From Rhodospirillaceae bacterium (GTDB taxonomy: Bacteria; Pseudomonadota; Alphaproteobacteria; Bin65), in assembly GCA_028819475.1 (NCBI GenBank), contig JAPPLJ010000023.1, forward strand, positions 1-64,000: 64,000 nucleotides of DNA, given 5' to 3'. This document shows positions 306 through 26,310 of this stretch, in pieces; the stretch's first letter is position 1; each line of letters opens with the position of its first letter. A program made the translations under genes and the position numbers. The notes beneath the pieces are model-generated. The model saw nothing but the letters and a program-made list of their open reading frames with translations, was not told the origin of the DNA and made no database searches.

Positions 306-330
306 CGCGATTATCCCGTAGCGACAAGTA
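306..330 (+). repeat. Left terminal inverted repeat of the IS1595-type element
   Basis: Pairs with 3828-3852. The inner part runs into a short palindrome, GACAAG-TAT-CTTGTC (322-336), which could be a regulatory site for the gene at 368. The same 25 bases recur at 5431-5455 before a decayed copy of the same gene. Confidence 0.65.
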
Positions 331-367
331 TCTTGTCAAGTCAGCCTGACTCCGCTCTAATGGCGGA

Positions 368-2731
368 ATGGCGGATGACAGCGAATTTCGGGCATACCCC
401 TATATCCTGAAGGTTCTGGGGGACCTTGGCTGGGATACCAAGTCGCCGCGCCGCGGCGGGCAAGTCTACACCCAGGGCGAGTTCCGCCGCCACGATAGCC
501 TGCTGACCGACGCGCTGGGCCGGAAGGCCCCGGAGAACGTCGTCGTCATTCCGTGGGACGGCGGGCCGCGCTACTGGATCATCGAAGCGAAGCCGACGCA
601 CCGGGGCCTGAACAAGGCCCTAGGCGAGGCGCAGGGCTATGCCGACAGAGTGAACATCGTTGACGACCGCAGTACGGCGCGCTTCGCCACCGGGATCGCC
701 GGGACGCCCGATCAATCCTTCTACGTCAGAACGACCTATTGGGACGGCAGCGCGTGGCAGGAAGTGGCAATCAACAACTTCATGGCGACCGGCTTCCTGA
801 CGCTTGAACAATGCCTCAACATTCTCAGCCAGAACAGCCCGCGCATTCTCGATTACGACGTCAATCTCGATCTGTTCCTCGCCAAGGCGAACGACATCAA
901 CAAGACGTTGCACGCCAATGCGGTTGCCGCCCGAGACCGGGCGAAACTGGTCGCCGGGCTGCTTCTGGCGCTGGCCGAAGACAGCACGCTAAGGATCAAC
1001 CGGAGTCCGCGAACGCTGGTCGGAGACGTGAACTCGCGCATCGAGTCGCTGCTGGACAGGCACCGCAAGGTGGATTTCCTGCCAGAGGTCCAACTGAAAC
1101 TCCCGGCGAACAACGAGAATCACCGCAAGTATTGGTCGGCCATTGTCGAGACGATGCAGCACCTCCGGGAAATGAACATTCGGTCGGCGATCAACAGCGG
1201 GACCGATGCGCTGGGCCAGTTCTACGAGACGTTCCTGAAATACGCGAACGACGCGAGCGAAATGGGGATCGTCCTGACGCCGCGGCACATCACCCGGTTC
1301 GCGGTGTCCGTGCTGCACATCCAGCATGAGCACGCCATCTACGATCCGACGTGCGGGACCGGCGGGTTCCTGGTAGCCGCGCTCGATACGATCCGGGCGA
1401 GCCACCACGGCACGCATCCCGATGTGTACGACCGATTCCGCAACGACTTTCTGCACGGGATAGAGCAAGCCGACGATGTTTTCGGCCTGGCACTGGTCAA
1501 CATGATCTTCCGGGGCGATGGCAAGAGCCGCATTCACAACGGGAATTGCTTCGACAGCACATTCATTCGCCACAACGGCCGCATCGTCAGACTCCGCAAG
1601 GACGATCCGAGGCCGGAAGATGCCGTTCGGCCCTTTGCCCGCGTGCTGATGAATCCGCCCTTCGCGATGCCCGAACCCGAGCATGAGTTCGTCAATCATG
1701 CCTTGGAACAAACCCAAGCCGGGGGGCTGCTGTTCGCCATTCTCCCGAACGGCCCTATCACCGGGCAGACCGAAGGGTATCCGCAATGGCGCAAGGAGCT
1801 GGTGAAGCGGCACACCGTCAAGGCGGCGATCAAGATGCAGCGCAGCCTGTTTCACCCTTCGGCCGACAAAGTGACCTACGCGCTTATTCTCGAAGCGTGG
1901 CGCCCGCACAGGGCCGACGATGCTGTCTTTTTCGCGCATCTGTTCGACAACCTGAGCGCCAGCAGGCTGTCCAAGTGGGTCAACGTCTCGGAACGGCGGG
2001 ACAACGTGGACAGGCTGACAGCCGAATTGCGGATTTTCATGGCCGGGTCCACGGAGAATGTGTCTGAGATTCCGACCGAAAGCGGCGTCGGGACGCTGGA
2101 TCTGGAAACCTGCGACTTCGCGCCAGAAGCCTATCTGACCAACCCGCCCGACGCCGGGCCGACGCCACCGGAAGGGCTGTTCGTGGCGCTGACGCGGCGC
2201 GCGTTCCGATCCACTCGCGGCCCGATGCCAGTCCCGGAGCGGGTACAGGCATACGGACTCGATGACCTGTTCAACATCAAGCGCGGTGAGGTTGCAGCCG
2301 TCAAATACCTGCCGCGCGGAGACGTGCCGATCATTACGACGACCGAACAGGACAACGGCATCGAAGGGTATTACGCACTCGGAAGCACAGGTGTCATTCA
2401 CCGCGACGCCATCACCATCACCGTCAACGGCTCCGGCGGAAAGGCTTTCTGGCACCCCTATTCGTTTGCCGCGGTCGGCGATGTGCTGGTTTGCCAATGG
2501 CGACCGGGCCTGCCGACCGACTCGGCGTTCAAATTGTACGTCTGCGACGCGATCAACCGCAACGCATGGCGCTTCTCTTGGAGCAGGAAGGGCACGTTGG
2601 GGCGGCTACTCACCGATGTCCAGGTGGTCTTGCCTATGAAGGGCGATCGGATAGATTTCAGTTACATACGCCGGGCAATGAAGCGCGCGCAGGGATACGA
2701 CGCTTTGGTCGCGTTGTTGGATGAGGAATGA
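368..2731 (+). CDS. Single-chain nuclease / N6-adenine DNA methyltransferase / specificity protein
   Basis: A 787-residue protein. Residues 1-110 resemble the N-terminal nuclease domain of type I restriction subunits, with an IIEAK motif (E73, K75) fitting a PD-(D/E)xK core. Residues about 270-480 are an N6-adenine methyltransferase of the HsdM type: the SAM-binding DPTCGTGGF motif starts at D326 and the catalytic NPPF at N429. Residues from about 625 resemble a target-recognition domain. Having nuclease, methylase and specificity parts in one chain suggests a self-contained type IIG-like or fused type I system that marks DNA and cuts unmarked DNA. Its place inside IS1595 inverted repeats suggests it travels as cargo. 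The stop overlaps the next start (ATGA). Cleavage activity is inferred from one motif only; an orphan methylase with a degenerate nuclease is the alternative. Confidence 0.8.
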   Translation: MADDSEFRAYPYILKVLGDLGWDTKSPRRGGQVYTQGEFRRHDSLLTDALGRKAPENVVVIPWDGGPRYWIIEAKPTHRGLNKALGEAQGYADRVNIVDDRSTARFATGIAGTPDQSFYVRTTYWDGSAWQEVAINNFMATGFLTLEQCLNILSQNSPRILDYDVNLDLFLAKANDINKTLHANAVAARDRAKLVAGLLLALAEDSTLRINRSPRTLVGDVNSRIESLLDRHRKVDFLPEVQLKLPANNENHRKYWSAIVETMQHLREMNIRSAINSGTDALGQFYETFLKYANDASEMGIVLTPRHITRFAVSVLHIQHEHAIYDPTCGTGGFLVAALDTIRASHHGTHPDVYDRFRNDFLHGIEQADDVFGLALVNMIFRGDGKSRIHNGNCFDSTFIRHNGRIVRLRKDDPRPEDAVRPFARVLMNPPFAMPEPEHEFVNHALEQTQAGGLLFAILPNGPITGQTEGYPQWRKELVKRHTVKAAIKMQRSLFHPSADKVTYALILEAWRPHRADDAVFFAHLFDNLSASRLSKWVNVSERRDNVDRLTAELRIFMAGSTENVSEIPTESGVGTLDLETCDFAPEAYLTNPPDAGPTPPEGLFVALTRRAFRSTRGPMPVPERVQAYGLDDLFNIKRGEVAAVKYLPRGDVPIITTTEQDNGIEGYYALGSTGVIHRDAITITVNGSGGKAFWHPYSFAAVGDVLVCQWRPGLPTDSAFKLYVCDAINRNAWRFSWSRKGTLGRLLTDVQVVLPMKGDRIDFSYIRRAMKRAQGYDALVALLDEE

Positions 2732-2982
2732 CGATGGCGAGCAAGCCGCAGGCGGTCGCGCCGGACCCCAAACCGGCGAGCGAGGAACCGAGGGCAACCC
2801 CCAACAAGGTCGCCCGCGCCCTGCGCCAGACGGCGAGCAAATCGCAACAGGAAAACCGAGTAGATACGGGCTTGACCCGGCCCGACGGGAACCGGGACGC
2901 CTTCGCCGCTATGTTGCGGCAGGCCGTGCCCGACGAATCAGTTCCATCAGAAGCGGAAACATCAGATCGGGACGCTTCCTGA
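2728..2982 (+). CDS. Small charged protein coupled to the methyltransferase
   Basis: 84 residues, rich in Ala, Pro, Lys, Arg and Glu, with no recognised family. The start overlaps the methyltransferase stop as ATGA, which argues for translational coupling. A second in-frame ATG lies 6 bases on. The 3' end runs 74 bases into the end of the opposite-strand transposase gene, so the last residues are constrained by that gene. It may be an accessory part of the modification cargo. Function unknown. Confidence 0.5.
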   Translation: MTMASKPQAVAPDPKPASEEPRATPNKVARALRQTASKSQQENRVDTGLTRPDGNRDAFAAMLRQAVPDESVPSEAETSDRDAS

Positions 2983-3787
2983 CGTTGTGCCGAAAATCGA
3001 ACTCCGCGAGATACTTGGGCAGATGCTTCGCCGACACATGGATGTGCGTTCCCCGGATCGAACGCTTTAGCTGCGCCCAATAGCCTTCGATGCTGTTTGT
3101 GTGCGAGCCGCCGCGCACCCATTCCTGCGCTCCGTGATGCACCGTCCGGTGTGTGTAGCCTCGCAGGTGCAGCCCGCGGTAGGCGAACCATTCATCGGTG
3201 TGGACGACCGAGCCCTGCCGGACGTTCCTGACAATCTCCGGCTCGATGGTCCGCCGCTTGGCGTCGGGAACCACCTTGCTCTTGACCGGACCCTGCCGCT
3301 GTTTCAGCCCGACGACGACCGACTTGCCTTCGGCGCCGCGGCCGCGTTTGCCGGGCCGCTTGCCGCCAACGTAGGTTTCGTCCGCCTCGACCTCGCCGAA
3401 CAGGCCGGACACGTCCATGCCCGCCATCAGCTTGCGCAGTTCATGGCCTATCCGCCATGCCGTCTTGTAGGTCACGCCCAACTGGCGCTCCAGTTCCTTC
3501 GCGGCGACGCCATGCCGAGTCGTTGTGAACAGGTACATGGCAAAGAACCAGTCCCGGAGTGGCGTGCGGCTTTTCTCGAACGGCGTGCCGACGCAGGGGT
3601 AGACGTGCGCACCGCAGAACTGGCAGGCATAGGCCCGGCGCTTGGCGATCCGGTGATACTTGGTGTGCCGCTTGCACTCCCGGCAGAACGGGTTGTCGCC
3701 GTAGCGCAGTTCCATGATCTTCGCCAGGCAGGCGTCGTTGTCGGGATAATCGGCGTCGAACTGGCGGAAGGTGTAGGTCTGTGGCAT
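2909..3787 (-). CDS. IS1595-family transposase
   Basis: 292 residues, close to the usual family length. The N-terminus has a four-cysteine zinc-ribbon (CRECKRH and CQFCGAH, residues about 35-60). The DDE-type core shows EADETYVGGK, then HTDEWFAY, then NSIEGYWAQLKR. It would cut and join the element ends at 306 and 3852. The gene points away from the right inverted repeat and converges on the passenger genes, overlapping the small gene by 74 bases. It looks intact. Confidence 0.88.
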   Translation of the reverse strand: MPQTYTFRQFDADYPDNDACLAKIMELRYGDNPFCRECKRHTKYHRIAKRRAYACQFCGAHVYPCVGTPFEKSRTPLRDWFFAMYLFTTTRHGVAAKELERQLGVTYKTAWRIGHELRKLMAGMDVSGLFGEVEADETYVGGKRPGKRGRGAEGKSVVVGLKQRQGPVKSKVVPDAKRRTIEPEIVRNVRQGSVVHTDEWFAYRGLHLRGYTHRTVHHGAQEWVRGGSHTNSIEGYWAQLKRSIRGTHIHVSAKHLPKYLAEFDFRHNVRKRPDLMFPLLMELIRRARPAAT

Positions 3788-3827
3788 GGTGTTTTCTCCC
3801 TTGCCACAGATATGGGGATTCGTTATT

Positions 3828-3852
3828 TACTTGTCAAGAAGGGATAATCGCG
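3828..3852 (-). repeat. Right terminal inverted repeat of the IS1595-type element
   Basis: Its complement starts CGCGATTATCCC and ends GACAAGTA, matching the repeat at 306-330 at 20 or 21 of 25 positions. It lies about 40 bases before the transposase start and probably contains the transposase promoter. Confidence 0.65.
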
Positions 3853-3981
3853 AAGAAGAAATGCATCTGATCCGGCGCGCGCCCTTCGATACGCCCCGGC
3901 CCAGGGGCCGGGGCTACTCAGGGTGAAGTGAAGGGGAGAGAACTCACTCCAAACCCCTCATCCCGAGCAGGCGCGCCAGCG

Positions 3982-4030
3982 CCGTATCGAGGGGCCGTAT
4001 CGAGGGGCCGTATCGAGGGGCCGTATCGAG
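3982..4030. repeat. Tandem 13-bp repeat, 3.8 copies
   Basis: The unit CCGTATCGAGGGG occurs three times in full and once in part, head to tail, about 40 bases before the lipoprotein gene at 4072. Length change here could alter the leader of that gene. It lies just outside the element's right end. Confidence 0.85.
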
Positions 4031-5430: not shown

Positions 5431-5455
5431 CGCGATTATCCCGTAGCGACAAGTA
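5431..5455 (+). repeat. Second copy of the IS1595-type left inverted repeat
   Basis: The 25 bases match 306-330 from CGCGATTATCCC through GACAAGTA. The spacing to the following methyltransferase-like start (5514) is similar to that in the intact copy. It marks a second insertion of the same element. Confidence 0.65.
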
Positions 5456-5513: not shown

Positions 5514-5655
5514 ATGGCGGGCGACAGCGAGTTTCGGGCCTATCCGTACATCCTTGAGGTGTTCAAGGGTTTGGGGTGTGACACCCGCAATCCGGCGCGG
5601 CGGGGGGGGGGGGGGCAGTCTACACCCAAGGCGAGTTCCGCCGCCACGGCGGAGC
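5514..5655 (+). pseudogene. N-terminal remnant of the nuclease-methyltransferase gene
   Basis: It starts MAGDSEFRAYPYILEV, against MADDSEFRAYPYILKV in the intact gene at 368, and the DNA stays alignable through the GEFRRH segment. The reading frame is broken at a run of 14 G (5602-5615) where the intact gene has only GGCGGG, and one A is missing just after it. After about 45 residues it joins abruptly to IS1595 transposase sequence, with the rest of the methyltransferase gone. This looks like a deletion or nested insertion in a second copy of the cargo element. Confidence 0.75.
5602..5615 (+). repeat. Homopolymeric G14 tract
   Basis: Fourteen consecutive G inside the methyltransferase remnant. 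Tracts of this length slip during replication. One more G would put the upstream ATG (5514) in frame with the long transposase frame ending at 6538. A sequencing or assembly error is a real alternative. Confidence 0.8.
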
Positions 5656-6538
5656 GGTACTTCATCGAGAAGCGATGGTCGAAGGGCGTCCGGTGCCCGC
5701 ATTCGGGCTGCGGATCGGACAACGTGCAGAGCGGCGCGAAGCACGCCACCATCCCTTCCGCTGCCGGAAGTGCCGCAAGCGGTTCTCGGTCAAGACCGGG
5801 ACTGTCATGGAAGCCTCGAACATCGGCTACCAGAACTGGGCGGTCGCCATCTACCTGTTCATGACCAGCCTCAAGAGCGTGTCCAGCATGAAACTGGCGC
5901 GGGAGCTCGGCATCACGCAGAAAGCGGCCTGGTTTCTCGCGCACCGCCTGCGCGACGCCTACAGGGCGGATACCGGCCTGTTCGGCGGGCCGGTCGAGGT
6001 CGACGAGGCATACATGGGCGGCCGGGAGAGCAACAAGCACGCGGACAAGAAGCTGCAGGCCGGCCGCGGCACGGTCGGCAAGAGCATCGTCGCCGGAGTG
6101 CGCGATCGCGTGACCGGGAAGGTCAGCGCCGAAGTCGTGCCGTACAACGACAGGCGGACGCTACAGAGTTTCGTGGAGCAGCGCGCCGTGATCGGCGCGA
6201 AGGTCTATACCGACGAGGCCGCGGCCTATCGGGAGATGCCCTATCATCGCCACGGAGCCGTCCGCCACGCCAGCGGCGAGTATGTCCGGGGCGAGGCGCA
6301 CACCCAGGGCATCGAAGCCTTCTGGGCGATGCTCAAGCGCGCCCACAAAAGCACCTTCCACAAGATCAGCCCGAAGCACCTGCAACGCTATGTGGACGAG
6401 TTCGCCGGGCGCCACAACGTGCGCGAACTGGACACCGCGGACCAGATGGGCGATATGGTGGCAGGGATGGTCGGCCGGCGGCTCAAATACGACGAACTGA
6501 CCGCGGACAACGAGCTGGCGAACGGCGCCCGAGGCTAA
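5655..6538 (+). pseudogene. Frameshifted IS1595-family transposase (second subgroup)
   Basis: The N-terminal part (ERYFIEKRWSKGVRCPHSGC) and the rest (FRCRKCRKRFSVKTGT onwards) lie in different frames. Adding one T near 5756 restores IPFRCRKC, as expected for the zinc ribbon. The DDE core is intact: EVDEAYMGGRE, YTDEAAAY and QGIEAFWAMLKR. The protein differs clearly from the transposase at 2909-3787. Its own start is missing, because it joins the methyltransferase remnant at about 5655. It is probably not translated into active enzyme. Confidence 0.75.
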
Positions 6539-6563: not shown

Positions 6564-7460
6564 ATGAACAAATCCCTTGCCACTGCCTCGATCGCAGCGG
6601 TCCTCATGTGCGCCGCTTGCAGTGGCAGCGGATCGCCCGGCACGCCCCAGGCCGGCGCCATAGACCGCTCCGGCGCCGCCCGTCTAACCGCTGGCACGGC
6701 GCCGGTCGAGACCCCGAACGATCAGGAATCCCGATCCCCGGGGATTATCGCGCGCACGGACTCGCTCGTCGTCTCGACGCTGCACGGCCAGACCAATCAT
6801 CGCCTCCTACCGACCTTCGAGGCCGCTGCGTCCTGCTCGCGAGTGTCGTGCACCTGGACGGAGCCGACAAGCGGCTACAGCCCGGAGGCCAGCGTCGACG
6901 ACTCCGTTGCCTCTAGCGTCGATGCGACGGCCGTGGTGACGAAGAACGGCGTCACGATGCTGGAAAGCCGAGACGCCGATTTCCGAAACTACGGCGCATG
7001 GCTGAACCACAGCGCATTCGGCGTCACCGCGCTCAATTTCTCCGCTACCATCGCCGGAACCGGGATCAAGGGCATTGCCCGGTTTGCGACCGCGGGCGGC
7101 GACCTCAGCAGATCGCGCCCCGGCATCGTCGTGACCTGGAGGGGGTTGATGACCGCGATGCCCGTCTCCGGCGGCGCCAGAGGCAATGTCCTGCAAGGCG
7201 ACGCGCTGCTCACATACAAGACCGCGGGCAACTTGCTCGATGCCGAGTTCTCGAACATCGTGAACCTCGACCGCGGCCGCGCGCATGACGTGCCCGGCTT
7301 CCGGTTCCTCGGCGTGCCTGTCTCGGGCACCGGCACCTTCGCGGCTGGGAGCAAGGGCAACCGGATTCAGGGCGGGATATACGGCCCCGGCCACGCCGAG
7401 GCGGCAGGCATCGTTGAGCGAAGCGGGGTGATTGGCGCGTTCGGCGCGAAGCGGCAGTAG
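6564..7460 (+). CDS. TbpB-like lipoprotein
   Basis: 298 residues with a signal peptide and lipobox (LMCAAC at the cleavage site), then a Gly/Ser/Pro-rich linker. The C-terminus has the TbpB-like barrel signature: GGIYGPGHAEAAGIVERS followed by GAFGAKRQ and stop. Relatives of this domain in transferrin-binding protein B and other outer-membrane lipoproteins bind host or nutrient proteins, but the ligand here cannot be read. It starts 25 bases after the broken transposase. It is a paralogue of the products of 8143-9216 and 9711-11081. Confidence 0.75.
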   Translation: MNKSLATASIAAVLMCAACSGSGSPGTPQAGAIDRSGAARLTAGTAPVETPNDQESRSPGIIARTDSLVVSTLHGQTNHRLLPTFEAAASCSRVSCTWTEPTSGYSPEASVDDSVASSVDATAVVTKNGVTMLESRDADFRNYGAWLNHSAFGVTALNFSATIAGTGIKGIARFATAGGDLSRSRPGIVVTWRGLMTAMPVSGGARGNVLQGDALLTYKTAGNLLDAEFSNIVNLDRGRAHDVPGFRFLGVPVSGTGTFAAGSKGNRIQGGIYGPGHAEAAGIVERSGVIGAFGAKRQ

Positions 7461-7949: not shown

Positions 7950-8142
7950 GGTCTGTCCTCCATCGAGCGCAGTACCTTGCCGTGATGGACTCGCCGCGGC
8001 AACCGCAGTAGGGTTGTCCGGCGACCATACCACAGACCCGAATGTCGGGTCGTAGTCGGGGCCGCTCACAATGTGTGGATGGTCGCATGGCTCGGCACCA
8101 ACCCCATATCCGGGTGCCATGCGAACCACGGGGGATCAACAC

Positions 8143-9216
8143 ATGACATCTTCGGATAGACGATTGGCCCGAACGGCGACCCTGGCCGTTGCAGCAACAT
8201 TCGCCCTGCTGACCCTTGCTGCCTGTGGCGGTGGTGGAGGCGGATCCACCTCGATGATGCCCCCCGGCGACGGGTCCGCAAACCCCCAGCCCACACCTGT
8301 AGTGCCGGTTAGCATTCTGGGACGGAGCATCGACGTGATCCACCTAGAACGAACAGACCTACACTCAACGTTGCGAAATTTTCCCGGGGTACTTCCCGTT
8401 CAAGGCACCGACCTTAGGGTCGACGGGAATGGTCCCTTGAGACGAAACTTAACTTGTCCAGGAATACCGCCAAGAGGAAACGAATGTACTCTTACGCATT
8501 ACACATTCGATGCAGCCGGAGGCGCAAGATACGCGGCCCGCGAGCATCCAACCGTCAACCTCGACCGTTCTATCGGCGACGTCATCCGTAACGAACTCAA
8601 CAATCTCAGACCCGTGAACGCGCTTCACGGAATCCGGATGTACGAAACAGACGTAACGGGAATAGGAATCCAAGCCCCAACAGAATCCTACGGAGGCTAT
8701 GGCGAGTGGATGTCCTTCCACGTAATCGGGCCAACACCGGCCGTGGCGGCGTCAGTCTTGACTAACGCAGGTCTCTTCACCATCGGCGCCGCCTCGTACG
8801 GAAACCTATATGTCGACCCCTCCGGCGACAGCAGACCGAAAGACTCCGCCATTTACGAAGGATCGATGGTAGGACGCGAACATGGGTGGCTAGGCGCCAA
8901 GGAGGTTCAAGGGAAATCCCAGGTCGCATACGATTTTTCTGCGGCCACAGTTGATGTTCTCCTAACTGAAATAGTCTACCGCGACACCCTGAGACCGACA
9001 GCGCACGATCAAAACGTGAGTTGGTTGAACATTCCCGTGAACAGGGACGCCTCTTTCTACATTCCTGGCCACGGCAACCACGCGGACAATCAAAATCCAC
9101 ATCCAAGCCGAGGCTACATAGACGGCGACTTTTACGGACCACAAGGGCAGGAGGTTTCCGGCGTATTTGAAACCAAATACATGGTGGGGGCCTTCGGAGC
9201 CAAACGGGGGAATTAG
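8143..9216 (+). CDS. TbpB-like lipoprotein with Gly-rich linker
   Basis: 357 residues. The signal peptide ends with the lipobox LAAC, followed by six Gly and a flexible linker. The C-terminus reads DFYGPQGQEVSGVFE and then GAFGAKRGN, the TbpB-like beta-barrel signature. The middle (residues about 60-250) is unlike its paralogues, as expected if it sets ligand specificity. Base composition from about 8350 to 9200 is more AT-rich than the surroundings, which may mean later acquisition of this domain. I chose ATG 8143 because it begins the signal peptide. It converges on the gene at 9711-11081 across a large palindrome. Confidence 0.78.
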   Translation: MTSSDRRLARTATLAVAATFALLTLAACGGGGGGSTSMMPPGDGSANPQPTPVVPVSILGRSIDVIHLERTDLHSTLRNFPGVLPVQGTDLRVDGNGPLRRNLTCPGIPPRGNECTLTHYTFDAAGGARYAAREHPTVNLDRSIGDVIRNELNNLRPVNALHGIRMYETDVTGIGIQAPTESYGGYGEWMSFHVIGPTPAVAASVLTNAGLFTIGAASYGNLYVDPSGDSRPKDSAIYEGSMVGREHGWLGAKEVQGKSQVAYDFSAATVDVLLTEIVYRDTLRPTAHDQNVSWLNIPVNRDASFYIPGHGNHADNQNPHPSRGYIDGDFYGPQGQEVSGVFETKYMVGAFGAKRGN

Positions 9217-11974: not shown

Positions 11975-12247
11975 CTTCCGCCTCAATCGGTTAGCAAATT
12001 CTCGACGCGGCAACCGTACCGGCGCCGGCGCATGCGATGCAACGGTGCCGTCGAACTGTAGCGGTCGCCGGCCACCCGCGGCGGAACGCACACTCCGCTT
12101 CCGCTTTGCCCGCCCCTCTCCTCGACCCTCTCCCCCGGCCGGGAGAGGGGACCTCGTGCGTCAAACGCGGAACCCCTCCCTTAGCGGAGGGGGGCTATCA
12201 GGCCTGGCTCAGGGGAGGATTTTTGCTATCGGCGAGGGACAGGCCGC

Positions 12248-25666: not shown

Positions 25667-26310
25667 GAGCCCCACGGCGTTCGGCAGCCGCACCTAGCCC
25701 CCACGGATCGAACGAAATCAAGAGTAGGCTCACTGAGCAATTTCAAGGCGGCGTGCCGAACGACGGCTGAGAATCGCTGATTGGACCTGTTCGGCAATAG
25801 CGGCACATACTCATGCGCTGTCCTTGTTGAACGTGGAGAACCGGCGCAGTCATGGGCTAACTCGTGGGCGCAATCGACAAGCCCGGAATTTGATGAGGGG
25901 TTCACAATTCCTAGGGCTACAGACGTTCGAGGCATCATCGGGAAGTCTGGTGGCGATACATCCAGGATACAATAACTTCATTAATCATACTGTTAAAAAG
26001 GCTCAGATTAGGATCTCAATCAATTGCCGGTCTCCGTGGTTGCGAGCCCCCGCTCAAAAGGTCGTAACGATCTCGCGGACCGTTCCTTGCCCAACAAAAA
26101 ATAGTCGTGTTGGGCAAAACTGCCCCTTGGGCCGCTCCTGGCCGCTGAGCCCGGTGGGCGGGACCGCGTGAGCGTCTTGCGGGCCGCCGATCGGCCCGGC
26201 AAATCTTTGGTCATGCTTGACCCAGAGGGCGCAGATCTGATCGCCGGGCATCGGCCCGGGTGACAGTCGTGGTGCAGGTGCGGTTCCTGCCCGTGACCCC
26301 GTCTCCACGC
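25667..26310. other. Gap with a possible decayed oxidoreductase tail
   Basis: No intact gene. On the minus strand near 26054-26100 a frame ends GTVREIVTTF and stop, resembling the end of the next gene's product (DVFGKIVATF and stop). This may be a scrap of a duplicated 3' end. 25690-26050 is lower in GC and unexplained. Confidence 0.35.

Follow-up and report, generated by a model that had tools for sequence, protein, structure and literature searches.

We asked whether the locus at positions 306 to 3852 of the window (the whole 64,000-nucleotide stretch analysed, which is the start of a 90-kb contig in a host genome of 4.48 Mb and 72 contigs) is an insertion sequence that moves a complete restriction-modification-specificity (R-M-S) gene along with its transposase. 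The host bacterium is probably a sponge symbiont, and the record of a sister species, 'MAG: Rhodospirillaceae bacterium isolate SB0661_bin_7', is one that we take to be sponge-derived. Two other genomes are referred to throughout: the sister species that carries the copy L027 (contig VXNK01000093.1, also G185:C125) and a third genome, also a sister (G385). The parts of the element are as follows.

298-305, no strand: left target sequence TATATTTA, without a right-hand counterpart; G385 is without the element from 305 on
306-330, plus strand: left terminal inverted repeat, matching the end of L027 at 1660, which is abutted there by the 8-bp duplication
368-2731, plus strand: single-chain R-M-S passenger of 787 aa, matched by PF02384, PF01420 and the type I M and IIG models
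368-847, plus strand: predicted N-terminal nuclease domain (residues 1-160), PE(N)...E73-A-K75, from the motif and a PD-(D/E)XK-typical element order
1178-2002, plus strand: N6-adenine methylase domain (residues 271-545), PF02384, with DPTCGTGGF and NPPF conserved in the alignment
2225-2728, plus strand: single target-recognition domain (residues 620-787), PF01420 and PADLOC Specificity_II, the fastest-evolving part
2728-2982, plus strand: short ORF of 84 aa, possibly accessory, that overlaps the R-M gene at its stop and the transposase gene at its 3' end
2909-3787, minus strand: IS1595-family transposase of 292 aa, convergent with the passenger, PF12762, PF12760 and NF033547
3828-3852, minus strand: right terminal inverted repeat, the same end being found in L027 at 5208

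Comparison of the two terminal repeats showed that they are identical at 21 of 25 positions (chance of about 1e-9 for two given 25-mers), which bears out the initial annotation in placing both the transposase and the 787-residue protein between 25-bp inverted repeats and agrees with the 20-30 bp or so of IS1595 ends. The transposase has the complete DDE_Tnp_IS1595 domain of this family (PF12762, positions 2-153 of 153, E 2e-43) as well as its N-terminal zinc ribbon (PF12760), and it scores over the cut-off of NF033547. The 8-bp target duplication of IS1595 elements was searched for at both ends of the window element and none was found (left TATATTTA, right AAGAAGAA), while that of the sister copy L027 is perfect (AAAATAAA). 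Beyond the right end, positions 3880-4030 hold a repeat that occurs in several places in the genus and contains CGCCCTTCGATACGCCCC as well as 13-bp units GCCGTATCGAGGG in tandem. Farther on, the ORFs at 6564-7460 and 8071-9216 have lipoprotein-like starts and a common C-terminal GAFGAKR, and are probably paralogues.

The 787-aa ORF contains EAK at residues 73-75, DPTCGTGGF at 326-334 and NPPF at 429-432, and Pfam placed PF02384 (N6_Mtase) at residues 279-523 and PF01420 (Methylase_S) at 623-710 (E 1e-4), in agreement with the motifs and the specificity-like tail noted beforehand. The type I M and IIG models of PADLOC both matched the protein, and a search of plasmid and phage collections returned relatives of the methylase part only. 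Pfam found no helicase domain in the protein and the element holds no second R-M gene; the R subunit with a helicase motor of type I systems (HsdM/S/R) is thus missing, while the nuclease, N6 methylase and specificity parts of a type IIG enzyme are present on one chain, with the nuclease assigned by motif and secondary structure only. E-x-K is present in all 13 sequences having a nuclease part (EAK in 12 and ECK in one), and E73 and K75 are nearly invariant in the alignment of passenger relatives. The first acidic residue of the nuclease motif in the window family is a glutamate (PEN) in place of the usual aspartate; the distant relative L034 has the canonical PD...EAK.

An AlphaFold model based upon a 14-sequence alignment reached a pLDDT of 80 and a pTM of 0.73 (pLDDT of 56 with a 6-sequence alignment), and in it PE and EAK lie on consecutive strands, after which come a helix and a further strand. 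The model matched type I M subunits (5ybb, Z 27.2), BsaXI (Z 22.8) and BpuSI (Z 18.1), the matches starting at about residue 163 and residues 1-162 being barely covered by the structure search. Like BpuSI (3s1s), BsaXI (8w0p) and DrdV (7lo5), whose folds it matches, the passenger has a helical connector, an N6 methylase and target recognition, with an N-terminal nuclease region ahead; it differs from them in having one recognition domain only, a length of 787 aa, PEN for PD, and 11-20% identity over the aligned parts. Judging from motifs and the predicted fold, the passenger is most likely type IIG-like, with a single recognition domain.

We then compared the window and L027 by the Nei-Gojobori method. 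The whole R-M-S gene had a dN/dS ratio of 0.069; within it the ratio was 0.027 in the methylase, 0.051 in the nuclease part and 0.156 in residues 546-787 (linker and recognition domain). The transposase gave 0.114 and the 84-aa ORF 0.35. By this measure the passenger is under purifying selection and would thus have been retained as a working protein, nuclease included; the fastest change falls in the recognition part, as would be expected of specificity domains.

On these grounds of motifs, fold and selection, the single target-recognition domain would read a short site, the N6 methylase would mark an adenine there, and the N-terminal PE/EAK nuclease would cut unmarked DNA nearby. One transposase would act on the 25-bp end repeats, the R-M-S gene moves along with it, as comparison of genomes shows, and the single-chain form would suit a small element since one gene holds all the functions. 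The element would probably gain, because the gene would protect the cell from phage and plasmid DNA, and the gene may make its own loss costly. We infer restriction and addiction by the passenger, and a combined effect of defence and addiction is plausible.

We examined the cargo of the seven other IS1595 loci of the host genome whose repeats match at 21/22 or better and whose 8-bp duplication is exact.

L062, L063, L065 and L068: N6_N4 methylase fused to HNH
L067: methylase related to the HNH-fused ones, with a C-terminal stretch that is Mrr-like by eye, without a Pfam match
L064: methylase and XcyI-type nuclease
L017, 2415-3029: likely membrane protein of 204 aa, no R-M; perfect repeats and duplication TCATGACA

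Six of these seven elements therefore carry a methylase with a nuclease, and the transposase of the seventh, L017, is 51% identical to that of the window. With the window element included, the host genome has seven IS1595 R-M elements of at least three unrelated R-M kinds. Among 26 elements with exact duplications from the sister and other Alphaproteobacteria, R-M cargo was found in one (L080), the others carrying trypsin-like, RelA/SpoT, proteasome-like and other proteins. The difference between 6/7 and 1/26 gave p ~4e-5 in a Fisher test, in a comparison sample that is not strictly random and with five of the six host cargo methylases related to each other, so that we read the enrichment as local amplification and diversification, and not as a general rate. 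The cargo of L080 (4199-5811, sister species, exact duplication AAAAGAAA) is a C5 methylase with a GIY-YIG nuclease, and that of L111 (5852-7030) is a RelA/SpoT-domain protein. The ends of another locus, L118, probably match by coincidence, being GC-rich and accompanied by a partial transposase, and this locus is not among the 26.

The cargo might serve mainly to stabilise the transposon selfishly, by addiction, and not as a defence gene: one host has several elements that differ in R-M cargo and would resist loss, and classical type II R-M systems can kill after gene loss. However, when both activities lie on one chain they are lost and diluted together, which weakens such killing, and we regard a chiefly selfish role as unlikely. 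Somewhat less likely again is a passenger that is in effect a methylase only, with an N-terminal domain that no longer cuts and with DNA marking that serves to regulate transposition or to protect against other R-M systems. Mobile elements often carry orphan methylases, and the glutamate of PEN stands where an aspartate is usual, but the dN/dS of 0.051 for the nuclease part, the near invariance of E73 and K75, and the pairing of methylases with HNH or XcyI nucleases in other IS1595 elements of the host argue against this reading.

Evidence that the passenger moves with its transposase came from the sister genomes, most of the genomes compared being MAGs in which assembly or binning error is possible at single loci. 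L027 is a 3.55-kb unit that is 92.6% identical to the window element; bar a few bases, homology does not extend past either repeat, and AAAATAAA flanks the unit on each side as a perfect 8-bp duplication. Its flanks match the window at ~26067-26305 and onward, which places the L027 copy at another site. G385 has the left flank of the window at 89% identity and no element, the homology stopping exactly at base 305 and resuming at 3879. The right flank of the window belongs to a repeat family, about 26 bp of it differ from the empty site of G385, and the right-hand duplication is lacking; the window copy was therefore likely rearranged after its insertion. The window element, L027 and the empty site of G385 together present one unit at different sites with exact ends, as in a transporter IS. 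The unit of repeats and both genes flanked by an 8-bp duplication, which had been proposed as a check, was thus found at L027, while the window copy has the unit without the duplication.

Relatives of the R-M-S gene were found in three further IS1595 elements (L028, L052 and L059), with two gene orders overall. In L028, from a Gammaproteobacterium, the gene is 58% identical to that of the window and sits immediately downstream of an IS1595 transposase other than the window's, between 36-bp repeats (89%; 21/22) with TTTAAATA duplicated on both sides; a frameshift at 6831-7374 splits this gene at the start of the recognition domain. L052, on a viral-collection contig, has a gene that is 36% identical in the gene order of L028, with repeats of 22/22 and a duplication of 7/8 (AAGAATTA/AAGAATTT). 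L059 (genome G928, of the same class as L028) has a gene that is 47% identical in the gene order of the window and a transposase that is 66% identical to the window's; its 26-bp repeats agree at 81%, and no exact duplication flanks them. No IS1595 transposase was found in the flanking sequence examined for the relatives L030, L033/L008 and L053-L057. The viral-collection loci L053, L055 and L056 encode a nuclease-methylase (~600 aa) and a recognition protein as separate ORFs.

An ordinary IS inserted beside a resident chromosomal R-M gene, with the left repeat coming from another event, would agree with the lack of a target duplication at the window copy and with gene relatives that have no IS1595 transposase nearby (L030, L033/L008), but the same ends at another place with an exact 8-bp duplication in L027, the empty site in G385, and the repeat pattern of L028 and L052 with other transposase branches make it very improbable. 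Transposase and R-M-S gene have thus moved together as far as sequence comparison can establish it, in agreement with the initial annotation, which draws support from the L027 copy, from the site that is empty in G385 and from independent IS1595 elements whose cargo is related; methylase relatives always separate from such repeats and transposases would speak against it, and those of L027, L028, L052 and L059 lie in IS1595 elements.

The transposases of the window, L027 and L059 form a clade with support of 97/97, in a tree that includes L107 and not L095, whose row is a 44-aa fragment. In contrast, forcing the R-M-S genes of the same three elements into a clade costs 103 log-likelihood units and was rejected (p-AU 8e-99), L059 being grouped with L030 in the R-M-S tree. 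The discordance of the trees indicates that the histories of transposase and cargo are partly separate and supports, at the level of these phylogenies, a swapping of cargo between IS1595 lineages. We therefore favour, at a probability of roughly 85%, the reading of 306-3852 as a transporter IS of the IS1595 family that moves a type IIG-like R-M-S passenger, with exchange of cargo between lineages.

A second, decayed copy lies downstream and has the following parts.

5431-5455, plus strand: left repeat of the decayed element, identical at 25 of 25 positions
5514-5648, plus strand: relic of a diverged R-M-S gene (its first codons), ~135 bp, 72-76% identical
5649-6538, plus strand: transposase lacking its N-terminus, from another IS1595 branch, joined at ~5649 and grouping with the transposases of L028, L062, L064 and L065

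The first copy has 62 bp between the start of the repeat and the ATG and the second has 83 bp, so the earlier statement that the decayed copy keeps this distance does not hold, and this copy is moreover joined to another transposase. A search to base 12000 for TATAATTCCC-like ends as the right end of the 5649-6538 transposase found none. From its composition, the second copy is a hybrid scar of two elements and would show that earlier R-M-S elements were present at this locus.

A short ORF follows the R-M-S gene in all five IS1595-borne cases (window, L027, L059, L028 and L052), and no similar ORF was seen after its non-IS relatives. In the L028/L062 branch such ORFs bear the motif (A/G)TPE..A.A with unrelated cargo (L028, L062-L065 in variants, L069, L081 and L103), and in the window branch F..LL..A ends the last ORF, also with protease cargo (L095 and L107). 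Pfam gave no family for the small ORFs tested, the 84-aa ORF of the window included. Judging by this recurrence, the small ORF may encode an accessory protein of the element. Small basic ORFs independent of cargo are located at 7328-7468 of L028, 3506-3685 of L064, 4450-4608 of L069, in L081 and L103, and at 2728-2982 of the window. A conserved protein of 133-147 aa is encoded directly 3' of the IS1595 transposase, whether or not a methylase lies behind it, in L062 (6360-6785), L065 (7580-8005), L099 (5853-6296) and L104 (5977-6378).

More tentatively, and at somewhat less than even odds, IS1595 transposons might be shuttles dedicated to R-M enzymes that are compact and often single-chain, swapping cargo between lineages and accumulating different R-M elements in one symbiont genome, with a cargo-independent small protein, marked by (A/G)TPE..A.A or F..LL..A according to the branch, that serves the element and not its cargo.

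Transporter IS (tIS) with IS1595 transposases are known, such as MTnSag1/tISSag10 and tISCpe8 (PMC5704250; also PMC9330008), and PMC5704250 cites Siguier 2009. Like the window element, these have an IS1595 DDE transposase, repeats of ~25 bp, a target duplication and an internal passenger; they are mobilizable resistance elements, whereas the passenger of the window element is a single-chain R-M-S gene, and its host has six further elements with R-M cargo. Tn7-like transposons also spread R-M and other defence genes as cargo (PMC8649781), but they are larger, multi-gene and based upon another transposase system, compared with 3.5 kb, one transposase and one R-M gene here. Our literature search, the reach of which excluded the founding papers (Siguier 2009 and the 2014 IS review), found no description of R-M cargo, recurrent or otherwise, in IS1595 elements. 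IS1595 elements with passengers are thus already known and the recurrent R-M cargo is the apparently new part. Some IS elements have been mentioned as having methyltransferase genes as passengers, and we have lowered our claim of novelty for this reason.

The mobility of R-M genes is known, but most descriptions concern large islands, plasmids and phages. A complete R-M enzyme is here moved by an element of 3.5 kb that has a single transposase and whose sister copy shows exact ends together with an 8-bp duplication, and the six more host elements with DNA-marking and DNA-cutting cargo make simple jumping genes look like an overlooked vehicle of bacterial immune genes. Sponge-associated microbes are reported to be rich in defence genes (PMC5099237), and elements like 306-3852 would physically link mobile elements to this defence repertoire in a testable way. 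As small natural constructs, the IS1595 R-M elements would allow one to ask whether the host gains from R-M cargo or the element alone does.
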